From assembly GCA_018902545.1 (NCBI GenBank), contig JAHIQM010000016.1, positions 1-64,000 of the forward strand: a stretch of DNA of 64,000 nucleotides, in the 5' to 3' direction. The notes beneath the pieces are model-generated. The model made no database searches. It saw only the letters and a list, made by a program, of their open reading frames with translations, and was not told the origin of the DNA. Of the stretch, positions 5,319-35,391 are shown piece after piece. How positions within the stretch are numbered: position 1 is the stretch's first letter; the number at the start of each line of letters is the position of its first letter. Origin of the DNA: Pseudomonadota bacterium (GTDB taxonomy: Bacteria > Desulfobacterota > Desulfovibrionia > Desulfovibrionales > Desulfomicrobiaceae). The position numbers were made by a program, and so were the translations under genes.

Positions 5319-5350
5319 GACCCCGGCCTCATGTGGCGAGATCCGGGGTC
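5319..5350 (-). terminator. Hairpin overlapping the stop of the giant gene, possible terminator
   Basis: An 8-bp perfect stem (GACCCCGG with CCGGGGTC) reaches into the stop codon of the 2512-residue gene. There is no T-run, so termination is only a guess. Confidence 0.3.
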
Positions 5351-12887: not shown

Positions 12888-13117
12888 GAATCCTCCGGCA
12901 GTAAACGTTATTGTGACGCCCCTTCCTACTGTCCAAGCACCCAGCCGCAAGCGGTACAAAAATAGCGCCCGCACGCTCCTGCCAAGATACCCGCAAGGTC
13001 CGTATCGGGCAAGATATTGATCTGTTTCCAGGCGCGTTCGACAGCGCCGCAATTGCCATTTGAGCGAAATTTATCTACATTAATAACCTAAAATCATTCA
13101 CAGGGAGCCTATATCGC
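12888..13117. promoter_or_regulatory. Divergent promoter region between the two largest exported proteins
   Basis: These 230 bases separate two genes that start outward, so both promoters should lie here. On the plus strand a weak sigma-70-like pair is possible: TTGAGC near 13059 and an AT-rich TAACCT/TAAAAT about 17-24 bases later, followed by AGGGAG and the ATG at 13118. On the minus strand GGAGG precedes the ATG at 12887. No operator repeat was recognised. Confidence 0.35.
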
Positions 13118-17631: not shown

Positions 17632-20295
17632 CTAGTCAAGGGGAATGCTCTCTCGCCGGAAGTGCGTCCCATCGATGGCCAGGTACTGCAGGGCACCCTC
17701 CACGAACACCGCGCGGGGCGGAATGATGTCGTGGACGCGGTCCTCGCCGCCAAACACTGCAATGTGCATCTTCTTGTCCTGATCACGGGTGAAATAGACC
17801 AGATGCCGCCCATCGGGGCTGAACTGCGGCGGCAACTCGTCGAAGATTTCCCGCACCTCCGGCCCGGCCTGGCCATCGAGATAGGCACGCCAGGATTTTT
17901 TCTGCCTCTCCAGCCATGCCACCCTGGTCCCGTCGGGGCTGAAGACGATCTGCCTGGGAGACCCCTGGCCCCGGCCAATCTCCTTACCGTCCACGACGAC
18001 CACGTACTCCTCGTCATTAAGCTCAAAGCCCGCGGCCCAGCGGCTGCCGTCAGGGCTGAAGATTGGGCTGAGTATACTTTTGAGAGTTCCGAAGCCATGG
18101 GAAAAAACCTGGCCGTCGACCACCAGAAAAGCCTCATCTCCCTTTTTTGCAGCATAGATATGCCGTTGGCCGTCGGGGCTGAAGGTGGCCGGATCCCAGA
18201 TATCGTCAAAGTCAGGTCCGATCTGCCCGTTGACAACCATGGACCTTACCGTGTCGTCCACATGGGCGACAAAGGCGTAGAAAGCGCCGTCCGGAGTCAC
18301 CGCGTACTTGTAGCCGTAACCCATGGTGGGCTTGAGTTCTTCGCCATCGCGGACAAGAAAGCGGTCTCCGCCCTCTTTTCCGGCGATGTAATAAAGTTCA
18401 GCGCGGTTCTGCGTGAACTGCGGAATGCCGTGAATGGCCGAATACTTCTGCCCCTCGGAACCGTCAGCGGTGACGACCATGGCGAACTCGGCGCCGGTCT
18501 GCTCGTCCCGGCCCCGCTCGATCCAGGCGCCTTTTCCGTTCCAGGCCACGGCTCCTTCCCACATGCGGTAGGGAGTCTGACGCACCTGCTTGCCGTCGAG
18601 ATAAACCCGGTACATACCGTCCACCTTGCCCGCCACCAGCACATGAGCCCCGTCGTCGCTCATCTCCAGAAACTCAAGGTCATCGAAGAGCTGACCGTCG
18701 GCTCCGTTGCAGACAGGGAGTTCCTTGTCCCCGAATTTAGCCTCGAAGCAGAAGGTTTCGGCCCCGGACGAGAATTGCATGGCGTATCCCGGTACATCAT
18801 CATACCATTTTCCGGGCACGCCGTTAACGACAACGCGCTTTTTGCCATCCTTCTCGCCATCGACCCAGGCCGCGTGGCGCATATCATCGGACAGCTTTAT
18901 GGCCCCCTCGTCCAGGGCGTACTGGGGCAGCTGGAAATCGAACTTGTCGGGCGCAGGAGCCGGCCCGGAAGTTCCTGTGGCAGTCAGGGATTCCTCCTGG
19001 CCCACGGCGTAAAGAGCCCCTTCATGCTCGTACACATCACCCGGCATGGCCGTCACGACCCAGCCGATGCGGTGCTGGCTGGTGCTGAGGGTGCCCAGTT
19101 CGTTGTCGCCGACATATTTTTTGACCCTGTAGGCCATGTACACGCCGATGGCTCGGGGCCCGACAGGGCGGCCGGTCGCGGGATCGATGCGGGGAGTCCA
19201 GCGCACCTCGCCGTCTCTGCTCTCCTCAAAACCGATGTCGGCGTCACCCACGGCGTCGTCATGCCGGTACACAGAGACCGACTTGCCGACCACGCGGTAG
19301 GAGACCCGGTCTGTAATCTCCTTTTCAGTCAAGGGGATCACGGGATTTTCGGGGGCTTCAACGCGGATAACCACAGGCGTATCCGGGGTGGCGAACCCGA
19401 GGACGAGATTGTATGTGGTATTGCCTTCCAGCACAGGACTGACGGTCATATACTCGGAAAGCTTGGCATAATAACGCTTCTCGCCTTCAAGGACAGCCGG
19501 AGTCCCGGGCAGTATGGCCTGCAAACGCCGCTGGAAATACGCATCGTCCTGCGGTCCGGCGACGGTCAGGCCCTCCGTCTGCAGTTTGACCCTGTACGTA
19601 CCCTGCACCTGGTCATTGATGGGAAACTCCACGCCATCCCCCGGCCCCGCATCATTCGGGGCAGCCGGAGGCAGGGTGCCCGTCGTATCCGTCTCCACCA
19701 CCATAGCAGGCGCAGCTTGAACAGGCGCGGCCTGAACAGGTTCGGCCTGGGCGGGTTCGGCCTGGGCGGGTTCAACCTGATTTGGCTCGGATGGAGTTGA
19801 TTCAGTTTGGACCGGCTCAGCCTGAGGCGACGCGGCAGGAATCGTCGGCGGTCCTTCCGCAGTCTGCGTCCAGCGCGAACCGCCGCTGCGCACCAGGGTC
19901 CCGGATGGCACGGACGCGCCCTCGGCAGCAGGCATCCACTGCAGATGCTCGCCCCATTCCATGAAGCCTGCCAGCTCGATCAGATCGGCCCGATACGGGG
20001 TCATGAGCGTGTCGTCCTGGGCGCCCCAGAGCTTGACCTGCTCCAGGTCGGCTCCAAGCAGATCAAGACCCGCATCCTGCCGCATCCTCTGGGCGAGACT
20101 CATGTATTTGTCCGGCAACTGGCCCCAGCCGCGCAGGGCGCGGACCGTGACCTTACCCTGCTGCTCCATCTGCAGGAGTCCGTCGGGGCCAGTAGCGATC
20201 TCTACGGTGGTGGCAAAGGCGTTGCCGTGAAAGATGCCCACAATTATAACGAACATCGATGCGGCCAGTAACTGCGCCATGAGAATTCGTCTCAT
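17632..20295 (-). CDS. Exported PD40/TolB-like beta-propeller protein with TVRAL module (887 aa)
   Basis: An AAGGAGGAAGG site precedes the start and a signal peptide ends near GNAFA. Residues about 36-116 carry the shared module (TVRAL at 50-54, then GLDLLGAD). A low-complexity linker rich in Pro, Ala, Glu and Gln follows (about 155-205), then a region of beta-rich domains, and a C-terminal propeller whose last blades carry four FSPDG motifs between about residues 700 and 830. Such PD40 repeats occur in TolB and in periplasmic propellers that bind partner proteins. It lies in the minus-strand series, 30 bases downstream of the 680-residue gene. A scaffold or binding role in the periplasm is likely; no catalytic residues are seen. 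Confidence 0.85.
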   Translation of the reverse strand: MRRILMAQLLAASMFVIIVGIFHGNAFATTVEIATGPDGLLQMEQQGKVTVRALRGWGQLPDKYMSLAQRMRQDAGLDLLGADLEQVKLWGAQDDTLMTPYRADLIELAGFMEWGEHLQWMPAAEGASVPSGTLVRSGGSRWTQTAEGPPTIPAASPQAEPVQTESTPSEPNQVEPAQAEPAQAEPVQAAPVQAAPAMVVETDTTGTLPPAAPNDAGPGDGVEFPINDQVQGTYRVKLQTEGLTVAGPQDDAYFQRRLQAILPGTPAVLEGEKRYYAKLSEYMTVSPVLEGNTTYNLVLGFATPDTPVVIRVEAPENPVIPLTEKEITDRVSYRVVGKSVSVYRHDDAVGDADIGFEESRDGEVRWTPRIDPATGRPVGPRAIGVYMAYRVKKYVGDNELGTLSTSQHRIGWVVTAMPGDVYEHEGALYAVGQEESLTATGTSGPAPAPDKFDFQLPQYALDEGAIKLSDDMRHAAWVDGEKDGKKRVVVNGVPGKWYDDVPGYAMQFSSGAETFCFEAKFGDKELPVCNGADGQLFDDLEFLEMSDDGAHVLVAGKVDGMYRVYLDGKQVRQTPYRMWEGAVAWNGKGAWIERGRDEQTGAEFAMVVTADGSEGQKYSAIHGIPQFTQNRAELYYIAGKEGGDRFLVRDGEELKPTMGYGYKYAVTPDGAFYAFVAHVDDTVRSMVVNGQIGPDFDDIWDPATFSPDGQRHIYAAKKGDEAFLVVDGQVFSHGFGTLKSILSPIFSPDGSRWAAGFELNDEEYVVVVDGKEIGRGQGSPRQIVFSPDGTRVAWLERQKKSWRAYLDGQAGPEVREIFDELPPQFSPDGRHLVYFTRDQDKKMHIAVFGGEDRVHDIIPPRAVFVEGALQYLAIDGTHFRRESIPLD
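19705..19825. repeat. 15-bp tandem repeats encoding a Pro/Ala/Glu/Gln linker
   Basis: Within the propeller gene, units such as ACAGGCGCGGCCTGA, ACAGGTTCGGCCTGG and GCGGGTTCGGCCTGG follow in register (15 bases, five codons). They encode EPAQA/AAPVQ-type pentapeptides. The array is a flexible spacer and is likely to vary in copy number between strains. Confidence 0.75.
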
Positions 20296-20325: not shown

Positions 20326-20735
20326 TTATTTATAAAATACAAATTGTAAATCTGGCTTTATAGTGTAGCCAGGTATAAAATGCATCTCAATCCTGCTCAT
20401 ATTTTTTGGCATTAAATACACAATACTTCCTTCAAAAGTTTCTCCAGGCGCTAAAGTATGTGCCCCAAAAGTTTCAGGAAATGCATCACCTGGTTTTACA
20501 CCTGAGTAATTATCAAAATTTCTACGATGCCCAGATTTATCAACATACTGCAAATCATTCCTACCGAAACTGTCTTCTTCATCAGATATATTCTTAACTC
20601 TAACGGCTACAATTACATATTCTTCATCTTCTTTTTTGCTTTTTGTCCATTCTGTAGCCTTTGCAATAGCTGTTAACGATATCTCAAAAGTATCTGTTCG
20701 ACCAGATTGGCCAATATGAAGAAAATTCGCATCAT
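20326..20735. other. AT-rich 3' segment of the 680-residue gene
   Basis: About 400 bases stand out by low GC and A/T-rich codons against high-GC neighbours. The upstream edge, near 20705-20735, falls at the linker between the Ig-like domain and the C-terminal DUF4352-like domain. This fits acquisition of the domain from another source. Confidence 0.65.
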
Positions 20736-22368
20736 CCCCATTAAGGGGCGCTTCATCCTCAGACTCCTCGTTGACCGCCAAGACATCTACGCTTTTGACG
20801 GCTTCGACGGTTTGACCTTTGTCGTCCCGGATACGGAAAGTCAGATTTTTTTCGCCCGACTCAGCGGGTGCCTCCCAGTAGAACATGGCTCCCGTGGACA
20901 ATCCGTAGCCCCCCATTTCCACCGGCTGGTAGTCGGGGACTCCGCCAGTCAGGCTGACCTCGAAATGCGCGACCTCTCCGGGGGCAACCGAATCCGGTCC
21001 GCTGACTGTGGCCGGCCCCAGGGGAGGAGCCTCGGCGATCATGCGGTCGATCTGCGCGATCAACTCCTGCACCTGCCGAACCCTGTCCGCGAGCTCGGGA
21101 TGCTGGCCTAGAGCCTCCTGCAGCACGGCCAGAGCCTCCTCCACGTGCGTCCGGGCCAGATTCAGATTACGTCCCTGGCTGGCCAGCCGGTAACCGAACA
21201 TGTACGGGACCCGCGCTTGGGCGATGACCTGGTTGGCCGCCCTGCGCTCCTCGGCCTTGGCAACGATGCCTTTCAAATCCTGTATTTTCTCGAAAATGCC
21301 CTCGTTGGGAAAATTCTGTTCCATGGCGTACCGTTCGACCTTGGCCAGATAGTCGGCCGCCTTCGCAACATCGCCGGACTTGAGCAGTTCGTCGACCTTG
21401 AGCATGCCGCGTATCGCGTTCATGCGCAGCTCCATGTTCGCCCACTGCTCCTTCATTGCGGCATTGGCGCGGTCGTACTGGAGCATGATCATCTCCGTGA
21501 CCAGTTCCTTGACCTGCGAACTCGTCCAACTGACCACCAAGCCCGGCAAAAAGCCTCCTCCAAGGGCGGCGGTGGCGGCGGTGCCGGCCGTCTGGGCCGC
21601 AAAGCCGAAACCCGTGCCCGTGGCGGCGGCCGCCTTTTCCTCGGCGTCGTTCATGGCCCACAGGGCGGGCACGTCAAAGGCCAGGACAAACACACCGTCG
21701 ACAAAGGTGCCGATTACTCCTGGGTTCTTGACCAGGTAATCCTTGACCACCTCCTTGGTTCCCTTTTCGGACAAGAGTTTCCGAGCCGCCCGGAGCTGTT
21801 CGGGGGAGAGGCGCTTCAGTGCTGTCTTGAGATCGTTGGTCAGCTGCGCCGGAACCTTTCCTGTCGCGGTGATGGCTTCCTCGACCCGGTTCATGAGGCC
21901 GAGCGCCCTGACGCCTGCATCGTCCAGGGAGTCACCGCTGTAGGCCACGAGCTTTTTCAGCCCGTCGGGGCCGACATTGTGAAAAGCGCCGGAGGCGCTC
22001 TCATCCAGAGCGACGACAGCGAATTCGCGCAGTTTTTTACTCTGGATCATGTCCAGAAGTTCCTCGCGGTTGGAACCAGCCAGCTTGCCGAGCCTGTCCG
22101 CAAACTCCTTCAGTCCATCCGTGTTCCCCTTCCAGTACTCAAGCGCGGCGCGAATCTCCTCGCCGGTGCCCTTCGGAAGGGAATCGTATGTCAGACCGGC
22201 CTTGAGAAAAGACTTCATGACCGCCTTCAGGCTGTCGTCCACGACAACCTGCTCGGCCATCTCGGCCTGCGTGGGCTGCTTCAATTCGTCGGCAAGGGAC
22301 ACGCTGACCGAAGCAAACACCAGGCCCAGAAACAAAATGCCCGTCCATCGCAACGTCGACATGTTCAT
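20326..22368 (-). CDS. Exported protein with helical N-terminus, Ig-like domain and DUF4352-like C-terminus (680 aa)
   Basis: The ATG at 22368 overlaps the stop of the upstream Sel1 gene (ATGA), and the signal peptide (ILFLGLVFASVSVSLA) follows. Residues up to about 230 are helical, followed by a Gly/Ala-rich hydrophobic stretch (about 240-290) and a helical, TPR-like part. An Ig/PKD-like domain follows (about 460-535, beginning GPDSVAPGEVAHFEV) that resembles those of the giant protein. The last 135 residues look like a DUF4352/telokin-like beta sandwich (VIVAVRVKNISDEED, LAPGETFEGSIVYL). That final part is encoded by much more AT-rich DNA than the rest of the gene, suggesting a grafted domain. 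Function unknown. Confidence 0.8.
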   Translation of the reverse strand: MNMSTLRWTGILFLGLVFASVSVSLADELKQPTQAEMAEQVVVDDSLKAVMKSFLKAGLTYDSLPKGTGEEIRAALEYWKGNTDGLKEFADRLGKLAGSNREELLDMIQSKKLREFAVVALDESASGAFHNVGPDGLKKLVAYSGDSLDDAGVRALGLMNRVEEAITATGKVPAQLTNDLKTALKRLSPEQLRAARKLLSEKGTKEVVKDYLVKNPGVIGTFVDGVFVLAFDVPALWAMNDAEEKAAAATGTGFGFAAQTAGTAATAALGGGFLPGLVVSWTSSQVKELVTEMIMLQYDRANAAMKEQWANMELRMNAIRGMLKVDELLKSGDVAKAADYLAKVERYAMEQNFPNEGIFEKIQDLKGIVAKAEERRAANQVIAQARVPYMFGYRLASQGRNLNLARTHVEEALAVLQEALGQHPELADRVRQVQELIAQIDRMIAEAPPLGPATVSGPDSVAPGEVAHFEVSLTGGVPDYQPVEMGGYGLSTGAMFYWEAPAESGEKNLTFRIRDDKGQTVEAVKSVDVLAVNEESEDEAPLNGDDANFLHIGQSGRTDTFEISLTAIAKATEWTKSKKEDEEYVIVAVRVKNISDEEDSFGRNDLQYVDKSGHRRNFDNYSGVKPGDAFPETFGAHTLAPGETFEGSIVYLMPKNMSRIEMHFIPGYTIKPDLQFVFYK

Positions 22369-23075
22369 TTGAGCCCCCACTGCGCCAGTTGCGACCCGGC
22401 CTCTGCGGCCTTCAGGCGCAGTTGCACAGCCTTCTCCAGATCCTGTGGCACCCACAGGCCGGACTCGTATTCGTCGGCCAACAGCGCCATGGCATCGGCA
22501 TCCCCCGCCCCTGCGGCTTCCTCAAGCAGGGCCACGGACCGGATCGGATCCGGCGATCCGCCAGCGCCAGTCCTGACCGCAAGGGCCAGGCTGACCTTCG
22601 CCTTTGGATCACCACCTTCAGCCTGAGCGCCAAGTACCCTGATCATTTCGCCAAGGTCTTCGACCTTGCCCGTGCCATCGACACCGACAGCAGGGGATTG
22701 CTGGACAACGGACACATCTGAAACGTGCTGTTCGCCTGAGGGCAAACCTTCGTCCATGCGGCTGATCAGCTGTCCGATAACATCGCGTTGCGTTTCGCTG
22801 AGGCCAAGCTGACCCTCGTCTGCCTGCCTCAACCAGGAGGCAAGCTGCGCCCTGTCCGCGGAAATGAGGTCCAGGCCCAGGGCGCGGAACTCCATGGCCA
22901 TTCCCGCAGTCGATTCCGGGACCAGTTTCCAGGCCCACAGGGCCCTGACTGTAAGCTGCCCTTCGTCCCGCAGCCTGACAAGCTCGGGCGGCAATGTGTC
23001 GTAGGCCGGTTCGGAGGCAAGAGCCGGGAATGGGAGCAGCAGGAAAAATAACGCAATGGTGAGCCAACGTTTCAT
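22365..23075 (-). CDS. Exported Sel1-repeat protein with TVRAL module (236 aa)
   Basis: A signal peptide (ALFFLLLPFPALA) is followed by the shared module (about 27-109, TVRAL at 42-46, then GLDLISAD). The C-terminal half contains Sel1-type repeats (GAGDADAMALLADEYESG and LKAAEAGSQLAQWGL). Sel1 repeats form helical solenoids that bind other proteins. It is the shortest protein with the module and shows the module as an independent unit followed by a different partner domain. Its stop overlaps the next gene by the ATGA pattern, so the two are translationally coupled. A GGAG site lies ahead of the ATG. The 107-base gap upstream could hold a second promoter of the series. Confidence 0.82.
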   Translation of the reverse strand: MKRWLTIALFFLLLPFPALASEPAYDTLPPELVRLRDEGQLTVRALWAWKLVPESTAGMAMEFRALGLDLISADRAQLASWLRQADEGQLGLSETQRDVIGQLISRMDEGLPSGEQHVSDVSVVQQSPAVGVDGTGKVEDLGEMIRVLGAQAEGGDPKAKVSLALAVRTGAGGSPDPIRSVALLEEAAGAGDADAMALLADEYESGLWVPQDLEKAVQLRLKAAEAGSQLAQWGLK

Positions 23076-23182: not shown

Positions 23183-24286
23183 TCATTTGCCAGCCAGGAT
23201 GCTGTCCACCACCCTTACCAGCGACGCCAAATCCATAAGCTCCGCGTCCAAGACTTCCCTGTCCGGCACGAGCCCCGCACCCGAACAGGAACCCCCGCCC
23301 GGAAGCAGGACGTCGCTATTGGTGTAGCGCAGCACCGAGCCGTCGGACAGGCGGGCATCGGTCTGGGAGCTGCATTTGCCGTAGGTGCGCTGGCCCACCA
23401 GCGTGGCCCGGCCGTGCTGGTGCAGGACTCCGGCGAAGATTTCGGCGGAACTTGCCGTGTCCGGACCGACGATGAGAGCCAGGGGCATGAGGTATTTCTC
23501 CCCGGACGAGGCGCGCACTTCGCGAATCTCCTCGCCGCGCCCCTGGATAGTGCCCAGAAGCGTGTCCGCAGACAGAAACATGCCCGCCATGTCAAAAGCC
23601 TCGTACAGGTCTCCGCCCGTCGCGTCGCGCAGGTCGATAATCAGGACCCCTCCGCGCGCCGCACCCTTTCGGGCCAGAAAATCGATGGTGGCCTGTAGTG
23701 CGGGCCTGGTCATCCCGGCGACGAATTCACGGATGCGCAGCACCTGCCGGTCGCCGGGAGGCACGGGCTCCACATCCAGGGGCTTGAAGGCCTCGCGCAC
23801 GACCCGGACGTCAAAGCTTTCCCCGCCGGGCCGGGCCAGCGTCAGGCGCACGACGGTGTCCTCTGCGCCCCTGAGCAGGGACGCCACAGCCTGAGCATCG
23901 CGGCCGGCCACGCTCTGGCCATCAACTTCAAGCAGCCTGGACCGATCGGGTATGCCCGCCATGTCCGCCGCACCGCCCCGGTAGACCGAGAGGTAAATCT
24001 CGCCGTCGCGCACAACCAGTTCTGCGCCGATGCCTATCCAGGCCTCGCGCCCGGACATGGGGGACTGATATTCCCGGGCCGGGAAATACCGCGCATACGG
24101 ATCGAACTGCTCCAGGAATGCCGGCAGTCCGGCCTCGTCCAGTGTCTCGAGGGCAGCATGGGCTGGGGGAACCAGCGCGTCGCTGAGCAGAATCCGGCGA
24201 ATCTCCTCCAGGGGCACGGACTGCGCCCCCGCAGGAACAGGCAAGGCCATCATCACGGCCACCATCCACAAGACCGCAATCCTCAC
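23183..24286 (-). CDS. Periplasmic S41-family (CtpA/Prc-like) protease with PDZ domain
   Basis: The 367-residue protein has a signal peptide (VAVMMALPVPAGAQS), a short helical N-terminal region, a PDZ domain (about 78-165, with IGIGAELVVRDG and LLEVDGQSVAG) and a C-terminal S41 catalytic domain. The catalytic serine S279 (in TASSAEIF) and lysine K304 (in TYGK) are 25 residues apart, the same spacing as the dyad of E. coli Prc. It should therefore be active and cut unfolded or C-terminally exposed periplasmic substrates. Its start overlaps the stop of the upstream lipoprotein gene by four bases. Its location suggests it processes or turns over one of the exported proteins of this region. Confidence 0.88.
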   Translation of the reverse strand: MRIAVLWMVAVMMALPVPAGAQSVPLEEIRRILLSDALVPPAHAALETLDEAGLPAFLEQFDPYARYFPAREYQSPMSGREAWIGIGAELVVRDGEIYLSVYRGGAADMAGIPDRSRLLEVDGQSVAGRDAQAVASLLRGAEDTVVRLTLARPGGESFDVRVVREAFKPLDVEPVPPGDRQVLRIREFVAGMTRPALQATIDFLARKGAARGGVLIIDLRDATGGDLYEAFDMAGMFLSADTLLGTIQGRGEEIREVRASSGEKYLMPLALIVGPDTASSAEIFAGVLHQHGRATLVGQRTYGKCSSQTDARLSDGSVLRYTNSDVLLPGGGSCSGAGLVPDREVLDAELMDLASLVRVVDSILAGK

Positions 24287-24825
24287 TGCGCCAGCTCCAT
24301 CTGCATCTTCATGAGCAGATCGTACTCCTTGCGCAGGGCGTCGCGCTGCTTTTCGAGCTGCTGGCGTCGCAGATCCATGTCCGCGTCGCCAAGGCCGCTG
24401 CCTTCAAGATCATCCAGGGACGACGCCTGCTTGTTCATTTTCCCTTTCAGGTCGGTGACCCGCTTCTGCAGGTCGGCCACACGCTGCTTGTCCGTGCCAT
24501 CCTTGGCGGCGAGGCTTTTGGTCCTTTTTTCCAGGGACGAGATTTCGGTCTGCATGGCCCGCACCAGCGCCTGGTCCTTGTCGAGCTGGGCCTGGGCCAC
24601 CGACTTCTGGACCTCCAGCTGGCCCTTTTCGGCATCGAGTTCACTCTGGGTGGCACGCAATTCTTCGAGCCGGGCCTCGCGCTCGGCCACGCGGTCCTTG
24701 TAACCGCCACCACCCAGCCCGGCGACGCCGCCGAAAAAACCGCCCGCGCGCGGATCATGCTGACCCGCGCAACCGCCTAGAAGCATCGCTGCAAACAGCA
24801 CCGGGATGAGAAACGCCGTCCTCAT
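24283..24825 (-). CDS. Coiled-coil lipoprotein (180 aa)
   Basis: The N-terminus ends in a lipobox LLGGC with the lipid-bearing cysteine at residue 19. A short Gly-rich stretch (GGFFGGVAGLGGGG) follows, then an almost continuous coiled coil to the C-terminus. The residue after Cys is Ala, which does not signal inner-membrane retention, so an outer-membrane location is likely. It overlaps both neighbours by four bases (ATGA-type coupling). Together with the next gene it takes the place of TagQ in Tag-type operons; the two lipoproteins may form a hetero-coiled-coil. Confidence 0.82.
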   Translation of the reverse strand: MRTAFLIPVLFAAMLLGGCAGQHDPRAGGFFGGVAGLGGGGYKDRVAEREARLEELRATQSELDAEKGQLEVQKSVAQAQLDKDQALVRAMQTEISSLEKRTKSLAAKDGTDKQRVADLQKRVTDLKGKMNKQASSLDDLEGSGLGDADMDLRRQQLEKQRDALRKEYDLLMKMQMELAQ

Positions 24826-25469
24826 ACGGATAGCCTCTGATCGATCTGGGCCAACTGGGTGCTGCCATCACGCAGCTTGTCCAGATTCTTCTGCAGTGTG
24901 TTCACTTCCTTCTCCAGACTCACGATGTACTGGTCGTCCGCCGGACGGGTCTTTTTCTCGTCGGCCAGGATCGCGGTCTGGACCTCAAGCTCCTTGGCCA
25001 GGGTGTCTTCGAGCTTCTTGCTGGCGTCGATCTTCTTCTGCAGCTCGTCGCTCTTGGCCACCAGCACCTTCTTGTCCACCGTGCCCTTGTCGTACTGCGC
25101 GCGCAGGGTTTTGGACTGCTTTTCCAGCGTGACCACGTCCTTGGAGAGTTGCGCGTTGTAGGCGAGGGCTGTCCTGTTGTACTCCTGCGTATTGGAGATT
25201 TCCGCGTCGAGGAACTCCTCCGTGCTGGCATAAGCCTGCTTGCGCTTGGCTATCTCGTTGCCGACCAGAAAGCCCAGACCCGCACCGGCCGCCGCTCCGA
25301 TGGCCGCACCGCGTCCGCCGCCAACGGCGTACCCGAGCAAGCCGCCCAGCACCGCGCCCACGCCCGTCCCTTCGGCCTGGGTGCGGTTCTTGTCAGACAT
25401 GGTCGCGCATCCGGGCAACAGGGCACAGACCAGCAGCACCACAGCGAGCACTTTCAAAACTTTTTTCAT
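24822..25469 (-). CDS. Glycine-zipper, coiled-coil lipoprotein (215 aa)
   Basis: The signal sequence ends in lipobox LLPGC (Cys21). A glycine-zipper membrane-inserting segment follows (GAVLGGLLGYAVGGG and GAAIGAAAGAGLGFLVG, about 38-70), then a long coiled coil to the end. Glycine zippers of this type occur in outer-membrane lipoproteins. The gene lies 24 bases after the SUMF gene and overlaps the next lipoprotein by four bases. By position it is the best TagQ analogue. It probably anchors a complex to the outer membrane with its coiled coil in the periplasm. Confidence 0.85.
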   Translation of the reverse strand: MKKVLKVLAVVLLVCALLPGCATMSDKNRTQAEGTGVGAVLGGLLGYAVGGGRGAAIGAAAGAGLGFLVGNEIAKRKQAYASTEEFLDAEISNTQEYNRTALAYNAQLSKDVVTLEKQSKTLRAQYDKGTVDKKVLVAKSDELQKKIDASKKLEDTLAKELEVQTAILADEKKTRPADDQYIVSLEKEVNTLQKNLDKLRDGSTQLAQIDQRLSV

Positions 25470-25493
25470 GACAACCTCCTAAAATTGTTCATT

Positions 25494-27197
25494 TTATGAA
25501 TCGGAAAATTCGGCAAATCCCTTGCGATATTCTTCCAGCCACACATCGGTGTCGGCCCGCCGCTGCTCCGCGAAGCTCTCGGCGTGGCCTTTAAGCAGCT
25601 TCATGACCAGACGTTCGCGTTTGGTCATCTCCCTGGCCTCAAGCTCCGTGAAGGCAAAGTCGATGTAGGCCTTCTCGTACTCGCCGAGGGTGCCGATCTT
25701 GTCCTTGTAGCCCAGCATCTGCTCGCCAAGCGCCGTCTCCAGCTCACCTATGGACTTCTGCACCGCCGCGACCTGCTCCTGGTAGCGCGACGATGTCTCG
25801 GCAAGTTCCTTGGCCAAGGCCAAGGTGTCCGTCAGGCGCTCCAGGCGAGAAAGATAGACCGACAGGTTGACCCCGTTGCGGGCCGCATCCTGGGCCAGAC
25901 TGCGCGCGCTCTCGCGCTGGGCCAGTTCGAGCCGTTCCCGTGCATTGTCCAGGGTGGACTGGACCGACCCCAGGGGCTCCTTCAGGGCCGGGTTATCCTT
26001 GATGAGACGCGCGATGATGGGGTCGGCCGCACCGATCTGGACCGAAGCCTGGCTGACCAGATTGTCCAGGGTGCGCCCCACGGGCATGGTCTTGCGCAGG
26101 TCGGCCTTGTAGGTCTCGTACTCTTTCTCGATGCGGGCGCGCTGGGCCGAGGTCACGACCACGTTGGCCCCGATGGCCAGACGCGCCCCGGTGTTGAAGG
26201 ATTTGCGCTCCTCAACCTTTTTTTCGTCCACGTTCCAGGCATAGACGTCGAGCTCCGCCCGAAGCGCGCTGCGCAGGTCCGCAGCCGGGGTGGAGACGCT
26301 CCCGCCGCGCACTGCCACGCCGCCGGGCTTGCCCTGCCAGATCTCCGGCCGAAACAGCCCGGAGGTCATCTCCTGAGCGTTGCCGATGAGATCGTGAAAC
26401 CCGCCCGCGTCGGGCTTGCGCAGCCCCACCGGCCGCAGCTGGTGCTTGGCGTTGCCAAGGTGCCAGGCAAACTCGTTGGCCTCGGCCGCCGGGAACGGCA
26501 GACCGTTGTCGAAGGTCCCGGCCTGGATGGATGCAAGACCGCCACGGGCGCAGTATTCCCATTCGTCCTCTGTGGGTAGCCGCAAGAATCCGGGAACCTC
26601 ATCCACGCGGGGCATGGCGGCCACACGCTCGGGATGGGCGGGGTCGAACAGCCACTGGTTGTAGCGGCGAATGAATTCGAGCACGTCTCCGTGGCTGACA
26701 TAGGCCAAGGGCAGCATCAGCGCGTCGCGCAGCTCCCGGCCCTGCAGGGTCGGCAGCTTCTGGTCCTCAGGGTCGCCGCTGGCGGCCAGAAGCGCGTCCA
26801 TGCCCATGACCGCGACATACTGGCCACGGGTGAGTTCATACTTGGCCATGACCAGCTCCCAAGCCTCATCCGTGCCGGATGGAAAGGAGCCGCTGATCTG
26901 GGTGCGCTGCAAGCCCTCGAAGATGCCACCGGCTGCGTCGCCGATCTGGATGATGCGGCTCTGGTCGCCCCAGAAACCGCTACCGGACACCGGGACCCGG
27001 CGGAAAACCATCTGGGCGTCGTCCGGCATGGGCAGGACCAGGTCGCCTTTGGCTGGCTTGGGATTGTACGGGGTTTGCGGCGGCGCTTCGGCCAGGGCCG
27101 TGTTCATCGGAACCGCGAGACCGCATGTCACCGCGAAAAGCAGGAAAAACATCATGGCCGAAATTCGCCGGCCCGGCCTCACGCCATCATTGTTCAC
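25494..27197 (-). CDS. Exported SUMF/FGE-fold protein, TagR-like, with coiled-coil tail (567 aa)
   Basis: A signal peptide (FFLLFAVTCGLAVPMNTALA) is followed by a formylglycine-generating-enzyme fold (about 55-275) with family landmarks TRGQYVAVMG, RLPTEDEWEYCARGG, GNAQEMTSG and AVRGGSVS. The paired cysteines near the C-terminal end of catalytic FGE are absent: the RGGS motif is followed by a Cys-free stretch. It is therefore probably a binding protein, as proposed for TagR and other non-catalytic members. The C-terminal half is a helical, coiled-coil region. Translation starts at GTG 27197, inside the end of the permease gene, behind GGAGG. Order and fold fit the TagR position. Confidence 0.85.
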   Translation of the reverse strand: MNNDGVRPGRRISAMMFFLLFAVTCGLAVPMNTALAEAPPQTPYNPKPAKGDLVLPMPDDAQMVFRRVPVSGSGFWGDQSRIIQIGDAAGGIFEGLQRTQISGSFPSGTDEAWELVMAKYELTRGQYVAVMGMDALLAASGDPEDQKLPTLQGRELRDALMLPLAYVSHGDVLEFIRRYNQWLFDPAHPERVAAMPRVDEVPGFLRLPTEDEWEYCARGGLASIQAGTFDNGLPFPAAEANEFAWHLGNAKHQLRPVGLRKPDAGGFHDLIGNAQEMTSGLFRPEIWQGKPGGVAVRGGSVSTPAADLRSALRAELDVYAWNVDEKKVEERKSFNTGARLAIGANVVVTSAQRARIEKEYETYKADLRKTMPVGRTLDNLVSQASVQIGAADPIIARLIKDNPALKEPLGSVQSTLDNARERLELAQRESARSLAQDAARNGVNLSVYLSRLERLTDTLALAKELAETSSRYQEQVAAVQKSIGELETALGEQMLGYKDKIGTLGEYEKAYIDFAFTELEAREMTKRERLVMKLLKGHAESFAEQRRADTDVWLEEYRKGFAEFSDS

Positions 27198-29016
27198 GAA
27201 TGACCTCCGCAGGATCGATGCATGTCGCCCGCCACGCGGCTGCCAGGGAGGCCAGGGCCGCCAGGGCGAGGGTTATCAGACAGAAAACCGGGACATACTG
27301 CCCCGGCAGAACGCAAAAAGCCTCGCCCGGGGCAAGCTCCGAGGCAAAGGCATGGTTGATGGTCCCGGCCAGGGCCGCGTAACCGCCGAATCCGGCCGCA
27401 AGGCCCAAGGCCGCGATCATGAGCCCCTGGGAAATGGGAAAGAAAAAGACATGCCTGCGTGCGAAGCCCAGGAGCCTCAGCACCCCCAGGTCCCGTCTGC
27501 GTCGCTCCACGGCCGCGTACAGGCTGGACACCAGCACGGCGGTACCGCCGAAAACTCCCAGCAGCGCGATGAGCCAGAAGAGGCGAGTAAGACCCCGGTC
27601 GAGAACCTGGATGCGCTCGATGGCCTCGACTTCGGCGATGACCTCGATGCCCTGGCCTTTGAGCCTGTGGTACAGTCCAGGCACATCGTCGATGCTGTGT
27701 GCATAGAGGCGAAAGCCGCGATACCCGCCGCGTGCCATCTCAAAGCGCCCGGCCTCACTCTCAAAGGCCACGGCGCGCTGCGTGGCTGTGCGCAGCACCC
27801 CCAAAAGCTCCACCGGGACCACAGGATGCGCGAGTGCGGTCCGGCCGACCGGATGAAGGTCGAATTCCAGGGCGGCCACACCCGCGCTGCGCACACTCAC
27901 CTTTTGTTGCAAAACTTCCTCCCGCGCCGAGGGCCACAGGACATCCCGGATTCCCAGGGGCAGCCTGCCCGTGTATCCGCCCCACGGCGTCTGCGGCAGG
28001 CTCAGAATTCCTGCCTGCTCCTCATCCACGGACAGCCCAATGAGCCGCAGCTCCTCCTCGCCAAACCTGATCTCGACATCGCTAACATAGGGCAGCAGCA
28101 CGCGGGTGTGTCCGCGCAGCTTCTGGTCGATGGCCCGCAGGTTCGAAGCGGTGATGGACGCGCCGGGGGAAAGAAGGTTGTAGGCCGCAAGGCCCGGCGG
28201 AGGCGAAAAGCCAAGCAGTTCCCCGGCGCCATCCTCCGTAATGTCCGCGATGCGGCCAAAGCCGGTGTTGATGACCAGCCCCGAGCGGGTGATGGGCGAA
28301 AGGGGCTCCGGCAAGAGGAGCACGGCCCCGTCGAAACTCGCGTACGGCTCGGGCGTATCGCCGGTCCAGCCCCGCGCAGGAGCCGCGTAGCCCTCCTTGT
28401 AGGCTTCCACGTCGACCACAAATGACAGGGGCGCGTAGATCCGGGGCAGGGATCCGGCCCTGGGATCGAGCACCGCCGCGACCAAAAGTGGCAGCTCCGC
28501 CGCTTCGGTGCGTCCGCCGCGTGAGCGGGTCACGCGGGCGAGAATCTCCTCCCCGGCCGCAACACCCAGACGGCGCGACGCCTCGGCCGTGAGCACCGCT
28601 TCGCCGTCCTCGGGCACGGTCCCGCCGTTCTCCAGCAGGAGCGGATCGCCCGCCGCCGTGGGGATGAGATCGAAGAGTTCGCCCTTGCCCGTGTCGGTGC
28701 GCACCACGCTGAGCACCGAGGACAGGGGCAGGATGGTCGGAGTCAGAAAGCCGATACCGGGCCAGGTGGACACGTCCTCAAACCATTCGGGCTTGAATTC
28801 GCGGGTCTGCGCGGGCCTGATTTCGCGAAACACCGGATCCTCGACCAGACGCTCGCGCAGGGTGTGGATGGTGCCGTGTTTCAGGCCGAGCAGGACAAGC
28901 AGGGGGGAGATCACCGCCGCCAGGGCGATGACGAGGCAAAGGGTCAGAATCCATTCGTGCCGCAGATGCAGAGCGGCAAGGCCGGGGATGAGCCGCAGAG
29001 GCCGAGCGCGCGTCAC
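27187..29016 (-). CDS. FtsX/MacB-type ABC permease, TagS-like (609 aa)
   Basis: The protein has one N-terminal membrane helix (LCLVIALAAVISPLLVLLGL), a large periplasmic domain of about 400 residues, and three C-terminal helices. That is the topology of FtsX-fold mechanotransmission permeases such as MacB and LolC/E. These do not move a substrate through the membrane but pass ATP-driven motion to the periplasmic domain. GTG 29016 is preferred because it overlaps the ATPase stop (GTGA) with GGGAG ahead; GTG 29043 is an alternative. It is coupled to the ATPase gene upstream and the SUMF gene downstream, which fits the TagS position. Confidence 0.88.
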   Translation of the reverse strand: MTRARPLRLIPGLAALHLRHEWILTLCLVIALAAVISPLLVLLGLKHGTIHTLRERLVEDPVFREIRPAQTREFKPEWFEDVSTWPGIGFLTPTILPLSSVLSVVRTDTGKGELFDLIPTAAGDPLLLENGGTVPEDGEAVLTAEASRRLGVAAGEEILARVTRSRGGRTEAAELPLLVAAVLDPRAGSLPRIYAPLSFVVDVEAYKEGYAAPARGWTGDTPEPYASFDGAVLLLPEPLSPITRSGLVINTGFGRIADITEDGAGELLGFSPPPGLAAYNLLSPGASITASNLRAIDQKLRGHTRVLLPYVSDVEIRFGEEELRLIGLSVDEEQAGILSLPQTPWGGYTGRLPLGIRDVLWPSAREEVLQQKVSVRSAGVAALEFDLHPVGRTALAHPVVPVELLGVLRTATQRAVAFESEAGRFEMARGGYRGFRLYAHSIDDVPGLYHRLKGQGIEVIAEVEAIERIQVLDRGLTRLFWLIALLGVFGGTAVLVSSLYAAVERRRRDLGVLRLLGFARRHVFFFPISQGLMIAALGLAAGFGGYAALAGTINHAFASELAPGEAFCVLPGQYVPVFCLITLALAALASLAAAWRATCIDPAEVIREQ

Positions 29017-29771
29017 GACCCGCTCCCATTGACCGGCCGGCACAGCGAGCTGGTGACCTGTTCGGAGACCTGGTGCGTGTCAAAGGTGTAGGCCACGTCG
29101 GCGCGGTCCATGACCAGGTCCACGTCATGGGTCACCACCACCACGGCCACGGCTTCGTCGCGGGCCAGGCGGTGCATGTCGTCCATGATGGCCCGCGCCC
29201 GCGCCTTGTCCACGGCCGCCGTGGGCTCATCGGCCAGCACCAGGCGCGGCTGGTGGGCCAGGGCGCGCAGGATGGCCACCCGCTGCCGCTGCCCGATGGA
29301 CAGGGCCACGGGCATGCGGTCCAGACAACCGGCGACTCCGAGACGAGCGGCCAGCGCCTCGACCCGGGAAGCGGGAATGTCGCCGCCCTTGATGCGCGCG
29401 GGCAGGCAGATGTTCTGCCGCACGCTCAGAAAAGGCAGCAGGCCGCCGGTCTGCAGGACGTAGCCGAAGAGATCGCGGCGCAGGGCGGACAGGGCATCTT
29501 CGTCGTCCCGGGCCCACAGGGCCGCGACATCGCAAGGGCCTTCCGATTGCGAGGAAGTGATCTCAAACCGCCCGACCCGAGTTGGGGCCATGACCAGAGC
29601 GACCATGTCCAGCAGCGTGCTCTTGCCGCAACCGCTCTCGCCGATGACGGCGACCATCTGCCCGGGCCGGACCGCGAAATGCGGCACGTGCAGTTCAAAG
29701 ACGCTCTCGTTCTGGGAACGCGTCTTGACGAGCCCTTCCAGGCTGACCATGGGCGCGGTCGCTTCAGCCAT
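29013..29771 (-). CDS. ABC transporter ATPase, TagT/LolD-like (252 aa)
   Basis: All ATPase motifs are present: Walker A GESGCGKS (44-51), signature LSIGQRQR, Walker B LVLADEP and the switch histidine in VVVTHD. The signature has IGQ instead of the usual SGG/SGGE, which is tolerated in this subgroup. It belongs to the MacB/LolD-like ATPases that pair with FtsX-fold permeases, and the permease gene overlaps its stop by four bases. It would energise the periplasmic complex from the cytoplasm. A long, divergent insert between Walker A and the signature (about 65-105) distinguishes it from housekeeping LolD. Confidence 0.88.
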   Translation of the reverse strand: MAEATAPMVSLEGLVKTRSQNESVFELHVPHFAVRPGQMVAVIGESGCGKSTLLDMVALVMAPTRVGRFEITSSQSEGPCDVAALWARDDEDALSALRRDLFGYVLQTGGLLPFLSVRQNICLPARIKGGDIPASRVEALAARLGVAGCLDRMPVALSIGQRQRVAILRALAHQPRLVLADEPTAAVDKARARAIMDDMHRLARDEAVAVVVVTHDVDLVMDRADVAYTFDTHQVSEQVTSSLCRPVNGSGS

Positions 29772-29784
29772 GCCTCTTCCCCGC

Positions 29785-31893
29785 CTAGGGCAGATAGTCG
29801 ATGTGCAGGGGGTAAACCAGATCCTGGTCCGGGTCCGTATCGTTCAGACGGAACCACGCATCGACCTGCTCATTGATGGTGCGGTACTGGTCAAGCTTGG
29901 CCAGGACGCTCCACTCCAGCTGCGAGCGCTGCTCCGCCGTCATGCTCGCGAACATGTCATCGGTCAGGGACAGGATGTCGCTCTTGTAGGGCAGGCTCTG
30001 GATGAAGGCCGGGAGCAGACCCGATTCGGCCAGGGTCGCCGCACCGCCAATCTCGTCAGGGCGCTTCATGGCCTGGCCGGAGACGCTTTGCAGGGCCTCG
30101 AAGAACTGCCCCTGGGTGACCTGGGCACGCATGAGCGCCTGCACGACCTGATCCAGGGACTGGGCCAGGGACGACAGCTGCTCGCGGGTGACCAGGACGC
30201 GCACTTCCAGGGACCGGTCAGCGGGGTTGATCAAGTCGCGGTCCAGGGTCCAGGCCACGATATCCTTGGGAGGGGTTGCTTCCTTGCCCACGTATTCGAT
30301 GAGCGCGGCCTCCCAGAGCTTGTCGAACTCTTCAAGCGGAGCCGCTCCGACTGCGTCGGTGCTGGCGGAACCACCCATGGCCTCGTTGAGCTTTGCGTTG
30401 ATGCGGCTGGTCAGATGTTCGGCCAGATCACGGTACTGCTGCTCTTCGAAGGCGTTGACCGCCATTATGGCAGAACTCTCGGCGTTGCCGCGCACGCGGG
30501 AGAGGTGGGAAAACTGGGCCTGGGTCTGGGGATGATCCTCGGCTGCGCGGGGGTCCTGCAAGTGGATGGCGAAGAGATGCACCTGGGCGTCGTCGTATTC
30601 ACGGCGCAGGTCGGTCTCGTCCTTGCCCGAGGTGTTCTGCGCGTGCCCCTTGGGGTGCGAACTGGCGTCACCGATGAGGATGACGAAACGCAGCGCCCCG
30701 TCGCGCCACTGGGAGCGCAGGGCCACGTCCACACCGGCAAAGGCTTCCTCGGCATAGTCCACGCTGCCGACGGCAGTGGCTCCGCCCTCCTTTTCCAGCA
30801 GTTCGACAAGCGCTTCGCCGGAGACCAGCTCCGGGGTGAGGTTGCGGGTCACGTATTCGAGCTGCGGCGCGACCTCCAGGGAGTCGCGGTAGGCCACCAG
30901 ACCAAAGCGGAAACGGTCGGCCGTCTCGGCGCTGAATTTCCTGGTCATCCCGGCCACGGCCTCACGGGTCATGTCAATGAAGGGCTGCATGCTGCGGGTG
31001 GTGTCGATGACGAAAACCACATCGGTTTTCACGTCGCGCATGGCTGCGCCTCCGGCGGAGCGTCCCACCTGGGCCTGCTCCAGATAGTCGGGGCTTGAGA
31101 GGGTGTCGGCGCCCCGGCTGCCCGGCACGGCGGCCGCGAGTTGCAGAAGGCGGACGTCATCGCCGTCGATCCTGGTCTGCGACCACTGCAGGATGGGCAG
31201 CACGTAGAAGCTGCGGGTGATGTCCACAAAACGCTGCGGCTCCATGCTGACCACGCTGTCAGGAATATTGCCGCCGTTTATGGCATCGTAGAGGCCCTTG
31301 GCCTTGCCAGCCATGTCCATGTCATCGACCACGGCCTCCAGGGCGGCGCGATCGCTGAACATGAGCACGGGGCTGCGACCTTCCAGGGGGTTGCCGGGGT
31401 GGGTGTAGGAGACAAGCAGGGCCTGACGCCATTCGAGCACATCCTTGGCCTGCATCCAGCCCTCGGGTTCGGTCTTGGAACGGCCGACCTGATACCAGCC
31501 GCGCGGGTCCGAAGGCAGGCTCAGATCGAGGCCCTGGCGGTCAAAGACATACATGGGCTTAAAAGCGGGAACGTTGGCCTGAACCACCGACTCCTCGTTG
31601 ACCGAGGCTTCGCGATACATTGAGGCGAAGGGGCGCGGCAGGATGCGCAGCGGAAGTTGCGTCGCGGTTTCAAGACAGGCGGTTCCGGGCTGGCAGACAA
31701 TCCCGTCATCGGGCGGCGCAGCGCCATCGGCATGCCCGGCCGTTCCTTCCAAAGCGGAAAGGTCAGCTGGAGCGTGACCCTGTGTGCCTTCGAGATCCGC
31801 AAGCTGCGCATGTCCGTATCCGGCAAAAGCCGTCAGGCACAGGACCATGCCCAGAGTGAAAATCCTCCGCGCGGACGCAAGATAACCAAACAT
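29785..31893 (-). CDS. Exported VWA-domain protein resembling the periplasmic part of PpkA (702 aa)
   Basis: AGGAGG precedes the start and a signal peptide (TLGMVLCLTAFAGYGHA) follows. Residues about 82-155 look like an SH3-like domain (RGWYQVGRS, GWMQAKDVLEW). Residues about 288-490 are a von Willebrand A domain whose metal site reads DTTRS (D297, T299, S301). A helical region completes the protein. The SH3-like plus VWA order and the DTTRSM sequence recall the periplasmic half of the type VI secretion kinase PpkA, but no kinase or membrane helix is present. It is the first gene of the minus-strand series and is followed directly by the ATPase, permease and SUMF genes, the same neighbours PpkA has. 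It probably binds a ligand or partner in the periplasm. Confidence 0.85.
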   Translation of the reverse strand: MFGYLASARRIFTLGMVLCLTAFAGYGHAQLADLEGTQGHAPADLSALEGTAGHADGAAPPDDGIVCQPGTACLETATQLPLRILPRPFASMYREASVNEESVVQANVPAFKPMYVFDRQGLDLSLPSDPRGWYQVGRSKTEPEGWMQAKDVLEWRQALLVSYTHPGNPLEGRSPVLMFSDRAALEAVVDDMDMAGKAKGLYDAINGGNIPDSVVSMEPQRFVDITRSFYVLPILQWSQTRIDGDDVRLLQLAAAVPGSRGADTLSSPDYLEQAQVGRSAGGAAMRDVKTDVVFVIDTTRSMQPFIDMTREAVAGMTRKFSAETADRFRFGLVAYRDSLEVAPQLEYVTRNLTPELVSGEALVELLEKEGGATAVGSVDYAEEAFAGVDVALRSQWRDGALRFVILIGDASSHPKGHAQNTSGKDETDLRREYDDAQVHLFAIHLQDPRAAEDHPQTQAQFSHLSRVRGNAESSAIMAVNAFEEQQYRDLAEHLTSRINAKLNEAMGGSASTDAVGAAPLEEFDKLWEAALIEYVGKEATPPKDIVAWTLDRDLINPADRSLEVRVLVTREQLSSLAQSLDQVVQALMRAQVTQGQFFEALQSVSGQAMKRPDEIGGAATLAESGLLPAFIQSLPYKSDILSLTDDMFASMTAEQRSQLEWSVLAKLDQYRTINEQVDAWFRLNDTDPDQDLVYPLHIDYLP

Positions 31894-34716: not shown

Positions 34717-34720
<4 letters not shown>
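32183..34720 (-). CDS. ybbP: YbbP-like FtsX-family ABC permease with two FtsX domains (845 aa)
   Basis: Ten hydrophobic segments can be counted: one at the N-terminus, several grouped in the middle, and three at the C-terminus. Large periplasmic domains lie between them, giving the duplicated FtsX layout of E. coli YbbP. The gene starts at ATG 34720, overlapping the ATPase stop (ATGA); ATG 34717 has better spacing to GGAGG and is an alternative. The E. coli homologue works with the ATPase YbbA and is thought to act on envelope lipids or hydrophobic compounds together with TesA. The same trio is present here with tesA divergent, so the assignment is strengthened by context. Confidence 0.88.

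Positions 34721-35389
<669 letters not shown>

Positions 35390-35391
<2 letters not shown>

Follow-up and report, generated by a model that had tools for sequence, protein, structure and literature searches.

The 64,000-nucleotide stretch analysed here (the window, positions 1 to 64,000 of contig JAHIQM010000016.1) belongs to a Desulfomicrobiaceae genome of 3.7 Mb in 22 contigs that is 99.8% complete, and carries on its minus strand a compact gene array related to the TagQRST-PpkA module of the Pseudomonas aeruginosa type VI secretion system (T6SS). Read from position 31893 to 23183, the array encodes a VWA protein, an ATP-binding cassette (ABC) ATPase, a permease, a SUMF protein, a glycine-zipper lipoprotein, a coiled-coil lipoprotein and an S41 protease (Table 1). 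These seven genes overlap by at most 31 bp or are separated by at most 24 bp, a spacing that makes them look like one operon, and a Sel1-repeat gene lies 107 bp beyond the protease gene, followed by a DUF4352 gene and a PD40-propeller gene. An earlier reading made from the sequence alone had proposed adjacent minus-strand VWA, ATPase, permease, SUMF and lipoprotein genes at 24283-31893, with an S41 protease and large exported proteins next to them; all of these were recovered as placed, and the protease is catalytically intact. We find that the seven-gene cassette forms a lineage of its own and that, in the window's sublineage, exported proteins sharing a domain that we named TVRAL are linked to it. 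Open reading frames (ORFs) were called mechanically and the starts of some lie too far upstream; signal peptides were judged by hydropathy, without a signal-peptide program, and by this measure all array products except the ATPase and the permease possess a hydrophobic signal-like N-terminus or a lipobox. The nearest named locus is that of a Desulfomicrobium sp. (L055; loci are numbered L and genomes G throughout), with 79% identity in the VWA protein.

Table 1. Genes of the array and of its flanks in the window, with the evidence for each assignment.
Feature	Coordinates	Strand	Evidence or remark
Periplasmic VWA protein, relative of the PpkA VWA part	29785..31893	-	PF00092, 28.9 bits (cut-off 23.8)
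TagT-type ABC ATPase	29013..29771	-	PF00005
TagS-type FtsX permease	27187..29043	-	PF02687; 4 transmembrane-like segments
TagR-type SUMF/FGE-fold protein	25494..27197	-	PF03781; signal peptide (hydropathy), long C-terminal extension
Glycine-zipper lipoprotein, putatively TagQ-like	24822..25469	-	PF13488; lipobox LPGC
Second, coiled-coil lipoprotein	24283..24825	-	lipobox LGGC
Exported S41 (C-terminal-processing type) protease	23183..24286	-	PF03572 and PDZ
Exported protein, TVRAL domain and Sel1 repeat	22365..23075	-	TVRAL domain 22731..23006
Exported protein, C-terminal DUF4352, no TVRAL domain found	20326..22455	-	profile scans
Exported protein, TVRAL domain and PD40-type beta-propeller	17632..20295	-	TVRAL domain 19930..20202
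Large exported 1259-aa protein, TVRAL near N-terminus, no Pfam match	13118..16897	+	TVRAL domain 13259..13531
Exported 2567-aa PKD-domain protein, membership in the system uncertain	5349..13052	-	BLAST relatives

A search of genome contigs with a profile of the VWA alignment returned 447 relatives, and 78 loci were kept from the best 80, a sample that leans towards the window's form because it was drawn from the best-scoring relatives. A plasmid search gave 127 records with a VWA relative, five of which were examined, and further loci were added from relatives and from 369 genomes drawn from the class of Halomonas cerina; some further genomes with weaker or broken VWA matches were left unplaced as to type. 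Across these loci the module occurs beside SrfABC genes, in T6SS loci (only L136 and L100), as a gammaproteobacterial VWA-TagT-TagS set without a SUMF label, and in the form of the window, here called type A. A VWA tree with 118 rows, built by a quick search and with its long branches flagged, separates the 52 type A rows from all others by a branch that is 1.2 long and has an SH-like approximate likelihood ratio test (SH-aLRT) value of 100; 42 of the type A rows have the S41 gene and 10 do not, and the 66 rows of the other side comprise 34 Srf, 2 T6SS and 30 that are neither. A careful tree, for which seven long rows were dropped (two type A; one the T6SS row L136) and the remainder thinned to 57 (25 of type A and 32 of other forms), gave the same split at 100/100. 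Both trees are unrooted, and the direction of the sequence-only proposal that the module predates or escaped type VI secretion cannot be read from them. Left out before the 118-row tree were L079, L088 and L089, with VWA proteins shorter than 500 aa, and the presumed repeats L055, L060 and L062, of which L055 does duplicate L039 and the other two duplicate no row. Type A ranges over Thermodesulfobacteriota and Gammaproteobacteria, one metagenome-assembled genome (MAG) of Zoogloeaceae and one Azospirillum plasmid.

The individual proteins connect the cassette to the Tag module. The VWA protein has a signal peptide by hydropathy and no further transmembrane (TM)-like segment, and it found no match in a PDB sequence search; the metal-ion-dependent adhesion site motif D-x-[ST]-x-S is conserved in 53 of the 54 ORFs compared, the remaining one having a gap at that place. 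As the sequence-only reading had held, it lacks a kinase domain: a domain-profile scan of ten proteins (the cassette and its neighbours) detected none in it or in any of the others. BLAST connects the ATPase, permease and SUMF protein with the genes that stand at the TagT, TagS and TagR positions in Srf loci and in the T6SS locus of a Tistrella plasmid (L136), and type A SUMF proteins and the TagR-position proteins of Tistrella and Enterobacter are mutual BLAST matches. The SUMF protein also has a weak 19-residue match to the type IX ring lipoprotein GldK (E 3e-4). The glycine-zipper lipoprotein matches glycine-zipper families, with PF05433 at 24.4 bits (cut-off 24.2), in a comparison with domain profiles; TagQ has been likened to the Rickettsia 17-kDa antigen in a passage of PMC3608642. 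Where the module stands in a T6SS or Srf context, proteins similar to the coiled-coil lipoprotein (28-34% identity) are encoded downstream of it.

Walker A and B residues of the ATPase are conserved in 52 of 52 sequences, and 51 of 52 have the signature Gln. A tree of ATPases places 42 Tag-type members (22 type A, 20 others) apart from 31 other ABC ATPases with SH-aLRT 98; this outgroup consists of the 30 best LolD-profile matches of three genomes and the YbbA-like ATPase of the window, which repeats one of them (30 distinct). The window ATPase scored 118.6 bits against NCBIfam LolD, whose cut-off is 307.75, and its lineage is distinct from the LolD/MacB-type ATPases tested. The placement of ATPase and permease with LolCDE or MacB only, which the sequence-only reading had named as fatal to its proposal, was not observed, the ATPase grouping with the Tag-type ones. 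The first ~220 and last ~180 residues of the permease align with TagS-type permeases elsewhere (to E 1.6e-38), with an insert of ~200 aa between them; its periplasmic loop of ~440 aa is ~200 aa longer than in T6SS and Srf forms, and permeases are mostly 610-660 aa long in type A and mostly 395-450 aa in the others, a few merged ORFs being longer. In a model with a mean predicted local distance difference test (pLDDT) value of 87, the permease has a type VII fold: structure comparison with VIA gave LolE as best match (Z 23.0, root-mean-square deviation (rmsd) 7.6, 373 aligned) and also matched MacB (Z 21.2, rmsd 8.0, 363 aligned). An ordinary LolCDE or MacAB pair was rejected on the position of the ATPase outside the 31 other ABC ATPases, though the permease fold is of the same superfamily. 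PADLOC gave matches for the ATPase, first to mads_3 (E 2.3e-27) and next to generic ATPase families, and for the coiled-coil lipoproteins; the other seven proteins had none.

The S41 protease is a regular member of the cassette. It carries a PDZ and an S41 domain with Ser/Lys/Gln (TIGR00225 at 149.1 bits, under the cut-off of 218.6), and all 42 type A proteases compared retain Ser279, Lys304 and Gln308. All seven cassette genes stand together in 42 of 52 type A loci, a recurrence that is not chance, and the S41 gene follows the lipoprotein genes in 42 of the 46 loci with room for it; the remaining six end or are cut before its place (L041, L063, L069, L078, L090 and L209), and the continuation of L041 on another contig of its genome (L151) does hold S41. 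The six loci omitted from the tree stand outside this count as well, with S41 in five of them. A literature search found no paper treating at least four of S41 peptidase, von Willebrand factor, FtsX, lipoprotein and SUMF1 together.

The TVRAL domain, of ~90 residues and named after its motif, is common to the Sel1, PD40 and 1259-aa proteins of the window. A profile made from these three recovered 31 copies among the ORFs of 138 sequences, all of them in type A loci. In L042, L043, L044 and L073, and in contig-end fragments of two genomes (G058 and G070), the S41 protease carries a TVRAL domain joined to its C-terminus; in L146 and L152 the domain stands at the C-terminus of other proteins (residues 875-946 of 963 and 548-627 of 634), and in L209 a TVRAL-NHL-propeller gene sits between the VWA and ATPase genes. 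Its carriers include PD40, NHL and PQQ propellers, ankyrin and Sel1 repeats, DUF4440 and Big_2 (below cut-off), many have no Pfam match, and no toxin domain was recognised among the TVRAL proteins scanned. Pfam holds models of effector-associated domains (EADs), and 30 TVRAL members gave no convincing Pfam match (best E 0.0035, to an unrelated family); PDB sequences gave nothing convincing either (best E 0.0045, to a designed repeat protein). The domain of the PD40 protein was modelled (m5e2c44117665) as helical with short terminal strands (pLDDT 84, predicted template modelling score 0.75), and neither Foldseek (best E 2.9) nor VIA (best Z 3.5, rmsd 5.2, 76 aligned) returned a significant structural match. 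This absence of matches does not show a new fold; the domain is apparently uncatalogued.

The distribution of TVRAL follows that of the module in the window's sublineage. Among 101 related genomes it occurs in 17, namely all 15 with a full-length permease plus G058 and G070, in which an S41-TVRAL gene is cut off by the contig end (15 with both, 0 with the permease alone, 2 with TVRAL alone, 84 with neither; Fisher p 4.6e-16, uncorrected for kinship). The window's genus is represented by 16 genomes, of which 10 have TVRAL together with the permease and 6 lack both. In the single-contig genomes, 4 of 4, 4 of 5 and 3 of 3 TVRAL copies lie at most 23 kb from the permease gene (11 of 12 overall). 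Across the 369 sampled gammaproteobacterial genomes TVRAL was found in one, which bears the type A locus L209, in a scan that scored at most 14 first-look candidates per genome and whose negatives are therefore weaker than those from the 101 relatives. Within 48 genomes chosen by locus, it was present in 15 of 38 with type A and in none of 10 with Srf- or T6SS-type modules (nine Srf, one T6SS); because only 15 of 38 are positive, TVRAL belongs to the window's sublineage and is not general to type A, and even within that sublineage Halomonas cerina and two MAGs (L063 and L069) gave no match. In other type A sublineages the flanking proteins have other segments in common, with none in most of the 16 loci checked. 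Two Succinivibrio-type loci (L095, 18570-22064; L096, 18807-21972) encode signal-like, mostly ankyrin proteins with a common N-terminal region unlike TVRAL, and in L099 a trypsin-like protease (191-1420) and a small protein with a signal-like N-terminus (10146-10826) flank the module and have a segment of ~140 residues in common (28.8% identity, E 4e-11). Desulfopila aestuarii has two type A modules in one genome (L057 and L059); in the stretches examined, one is followed by a gene for a TVRAL-Sel1 protein, the other by a gene for a relative of the 2567-aa PKD protein.

The module of the window is free-standing. In its genome (G000), TssC/VipB (PF05943), IcmF/TssM (PF06761) and SrfB (PF07520, for which G042 was positive) gave 0 matches each, and no window ORF was labelled in BLAST searches (E 1e-5) with TssC or with the Tistrella ClpV/TssH, Fha/TagH, TssJ, TssK, TssL, TssM, TagF, PppA, PpkA kinase and VgrG proteins. 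Coverage beyond the window was genome-wide for TssC and IcmF, and the sequence-only claim of a window free of T6SS genes is borne out for pppA, fha, icmF, vgrG and clpV, Hcp not having been searched for. A near-full-length permease was found in 15 of the 101 related genomes and VipB in 21, both being present in five (on different contigs), so that the module shows no association with VipB (Fisher p 0.30) and 10 of the 15 have no VipB match; neither VipB nor IcmF was found in the single-contig module genomes G009, G015 and G029. When four of the five VipB-positive module genomes were tested for IcmF, G013 and G001 were positive and G037 and G047 negative. G013 and G001 belong to the window's genus and have their T6SS, with VipB and IcmF, on a contig other than that of the module, which limits the free-standing claim for them. 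A single ORF of L083 labelled 'TssL' was not counted, as it also matches the glycine-zipper lipoprotein profile. These results support the earlier claim of a free-standing module, and a complete T6SS lacking its own tag genes, which would have spoken against it, is not indicated in this genome by any TssC or IcmF match. The sequence-only interpretation thus stands in its Tag-type and free-standing parts, and it missed the sharing of TVRAL and a precedent: Tag/PpkA genes without T6SS beside srfABC in host-associated Deltaproteobacteria were printed in 2013, as a passage of PMC3608642 records. That was the sole paper on Tag genes outside T6SS recognised among the matches listed in the literature searches. 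The free-standing state itself is therefore not wholly new in print; the S41 lineage, the enlarged permease and the TVRAL domain appear new within the Pfam and literature searches made.

Other forms of the module bear on the Sel1 protein of the window. In the T6SS, Srf and gammaproteobacterial forms, VWA is preceded by a gene whose product has a TM-like stretch and, beyond it, a C-terminal part that is related from form to form (BLAST E 1e-5 to 4e-11, with 28-42% identity to the protein of Tistrella) and looks Sel1-like by eye; this part is preceded by the kinase in Tistrella, by another region in Srf forms and by little in the gammaproteobacterial set. The window's Sel1 protein has TVRAL in place of TM stretch and kinase, and it may correspond to this pre-VWA protein, Sel1 repeats being generic. 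The gammaproteobacterial set (L119, L195, L197, L199, L206, L207 and others) consists of a TM protein with a Sel1-like C-terminus, VWA, TagT and TagS, carries no SUMF, Srf or T6SS labels, and has otherwise mostly variable neighbours. Klebsiella accounts for 114 of the 127 plasmid records, and the one of these examined (L134) is the srfABC-linked form.

Genes around the array were also recorded. Relatives of the 2567-aa PKD protein lie near type A modules in L056, L057, L068, L071, L082 and L150 (BLAST). The PD40 protein matches NCBIfam TmcD, an electron transfer complex subunit, at 66 bits, under the 440-bit cut-off. Upstream of the module, 32183-36091 holds genes for a YbbP-like permease, a YbbA-like ATPase and a TesA-like esterase, named by order and size, which also stand beside the module in L035-L038 and resemble the YbbAP-TesA lipid hydrolase complex as outlined in PMC12646458.

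Compared with known systems, the window module shares with TagQRST-PpkA, the threonine phosphorylation pathway of the P. aeruginosa H1-T6SS, the VWA, ATPase, permease and SUMF components in the same relative order (through Tistrella L136), and its glycine-zipper lipoprotein may correspond to TagQ. It differs from that pathway in having no kinase or T6SS, in its longer permease, and in S41 and TVRAL proteins in their stead, and its VWA part is exported as a protein of its own, like that of Tistrella. SrfABC-linked clusters (passages of PMC3608642; Enterobacter and Klebsiella plasmids, L133 and L134) likewise have a Tag-type module without T6SS; unlike the window's, theirs is tied to srfA/B/C, has a permease of ~400-450 aa, falls on the other side of the VWA tree and gave no TVRAL match in the nine Srf-type genomes searched. 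Type VII ABC systems (LolCDE, MacAB, FtsEX and YbbAP) have the permease fold and 4-TM plan in common with the window, whose ATPase lineage is distinct from the 31 tested and whose partners are VWA, SUMF and protease. CtpA-LbcA also has an exported S41-PDZ protease encoded beside lipoproteins; the window lipoproteins are coiled-coil and glycine-zipper proteins, whereas LbcA is called 'spiral-shaped' in a paper title, and the window S41 is linked to an ABC-VWA complex. EADs of vWA-MoxR systems, as presented in PMC7159879, resemble TVRAL as small adaptor-like domains repeated on neighbours and a protease; unlike them, the window parts are exported, no MoxR match was obtained in the ten proteins scanned, and TVRAL has no convincing Pfam match.

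By analogy with these systems, we tentatively favour, at somewhat less than even confidence, the view that the array is a free-standing, kinase-free relative of TagQRST-PpkA, an envelope sensor whose output would be periplasmic proteolysis through TVRAL adaptors. Outer-membrane damage is sensed through TagQRST-PpkA according to passages of a 2025 paper (PMC11881912), which propose as input an unknown signal freed by that damage. The lipoproteins and the SUMF protein would monitor the outer membrane or periplasm, as in P. aeruginosa; ATP hydrolysis by the ABC pair of type VII fold would move its periplasmic domain and so set the VWA protein; and the state of the complex would switch on or place the S41 protease instead of switching on a cytoplasmic kinase. 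One lipoprotein could perhaps activate S41, as LbcA, an outer-membrane lipoprotein, activates the S41 protease CtpA (PMC8764530, PMC11021448). TVRAL would act as a plug-in adaptor that recruits exported proteins of the propeller, Sel1 and ankyrin kinds to the complex or to the protease, and its carriers could be substrates, effectors or scaffolds, the output staying outside the cytoplasm. This envelope-sensor reading is favoured because S41 is present in 42 of 46 loci with its catalytic residues kept in 42 of 42, because TVRAL is fused to S41 and a TVRAL-propeller gene lies inside the L209 cassette, because TVRAL co-occurs with the permease and clusters near the module, and because the array products are exported except for the ATPase and permease.

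The most serious competitor is a sorting or surface-assembly machine, in which the ABC pair with VWA, SUMF and lipoproteins would act on proteins tagged with TVRAL, moving or anchoring them at the outer membrane or on the surface. TVRAL would be the signal by which these proteins are sorted, comparable to the C-terminal domain of substrates of type IX secretion, and S41 would be the peptidase that processes them. TVRAL is N-terminal in many exported proteins and C-terminal in others (L146 and L152), SUMF has its short GldK match and the permease fold is nearest to LolE and MacB; yet the protease is itself tagged in several genomes, which is odd for a cleaved signal, the scan of ten proteins revealed neither an outer-membrane channel nor a beta-barrel, and 23 of 38 type A genomes gave no TVRAL match, so that we consider this reading rather unlikely. 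The array might also serve extracytoplasmic conflict or immunity, with TVRAL comparable to an EAD and with S41 and repeat proteins as effectors released after attack on the envelope. The adaptor-like domain on the protease and adjacent proteins (compare EADs in vWA systems, PMC7159879), its presence on varied propeller, ankyrin and Sel1 proteins, and the different common segments in other sublineages, in L099 with a trypsin-like protease, agree with this, but the scan, limited to ten proteins, gave no MoxR match, PADLOC matched only the ATPase and coiled-coil lipoproteins, and the TVRAL proteins scanned contain no recognised toxin domain, which makes such a role improbable.

A Lol-like transporter serving the two adjacent lipoproteins, with S41 and TVRAL genes as mere neighbours, would explain why the permease model is best on LolE and why two lipoprotein genes come after the permease gene. 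The ATPase, however, stands apart from the 31 best matches to the LolD profile, the genome has other LolD-like ATPases (best C13:73299, 272.3 bits, below the curated 307.75), VWA and SUMF have no known place in Lol, and the linkage to S41 and TVRAL is consistent; we regard this reading as quite improbable. The view that the array regulates a T6SS in trans, or is what remains of a T6SS since lost, draws on the five of 15 module genomes with VipB on another contig and on G013, in which the ~40 kb surrounding the T6SS yielded matches to PppA and, weakly, to PpkA, and none to VWA, TagT, TagS or TagR, so that a role in trans is possible there. Against it, 10 of the 15 have no VipB match, three of them being genomes in a single contig; the residues of the cassette are intact, and type A is separate in the VWA trees. 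As a general role it was rejected, the genome having no TssC or IcmF match and the module no association with VipB, and we consider it highly improbable.

Several observations weigh against the envelope-sensor reading itself. The ATPase tree splits type A from other Tag forms weakly (SH-aLRT 43 and 64), and the separation of type A is taken from the VWA trees, in which the T6SS side consists of two modules (L136 and L100) in the 118-row tree and of L100 alone in the 57-row tree. The Tag comparison was made through the Tistrella L136 and Srf loci as stand-ins for P. aeruginosa. Despite room for it, S41 was not found in L065, L072, L083 and L092, of which L072 shows only VWA and ATPase, and L089 is a VWA fragment at a contig start with no cassette gene after it. 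One of the five TVRAL copies of G015 lies ~987 kb from the permease gene, and the 23 of 38 type A genomes in which TVRAL found no match include five Sedimenticola, Halomonas cerina, Succinivibrionaceae and four Desulfovibrio/Avidesulfovibrio. The function of TVRAL cannot be read from its fold, given no significant structural match, and homotypic binding, protease activation and all functions of type A proteins are predicted.

Should the envelope-sensor reading hold, the array might represent a new kind of trans-envelope signalling, in which an ATP-driven VWA-SUMF-lipoprotein sensor would act through a periplasmic protease relay and a homotypic exported TVRAL adaptor, with other domains in other sublineages; we put this forward as a doubtful proposition. 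TVRAL would then offer a handle, its carriers being predicted clients or effectors and its fusion to the protease making that prediction testable. The findings suggest a general role for the module as a sensor of the cell envelope whose outputs can be exchanged. If so, its input would be open to study in species free of T6SS, with the protease as readout, and the T6SS pathway would be one of several outputs grafted onto an ancient envelope sensor.

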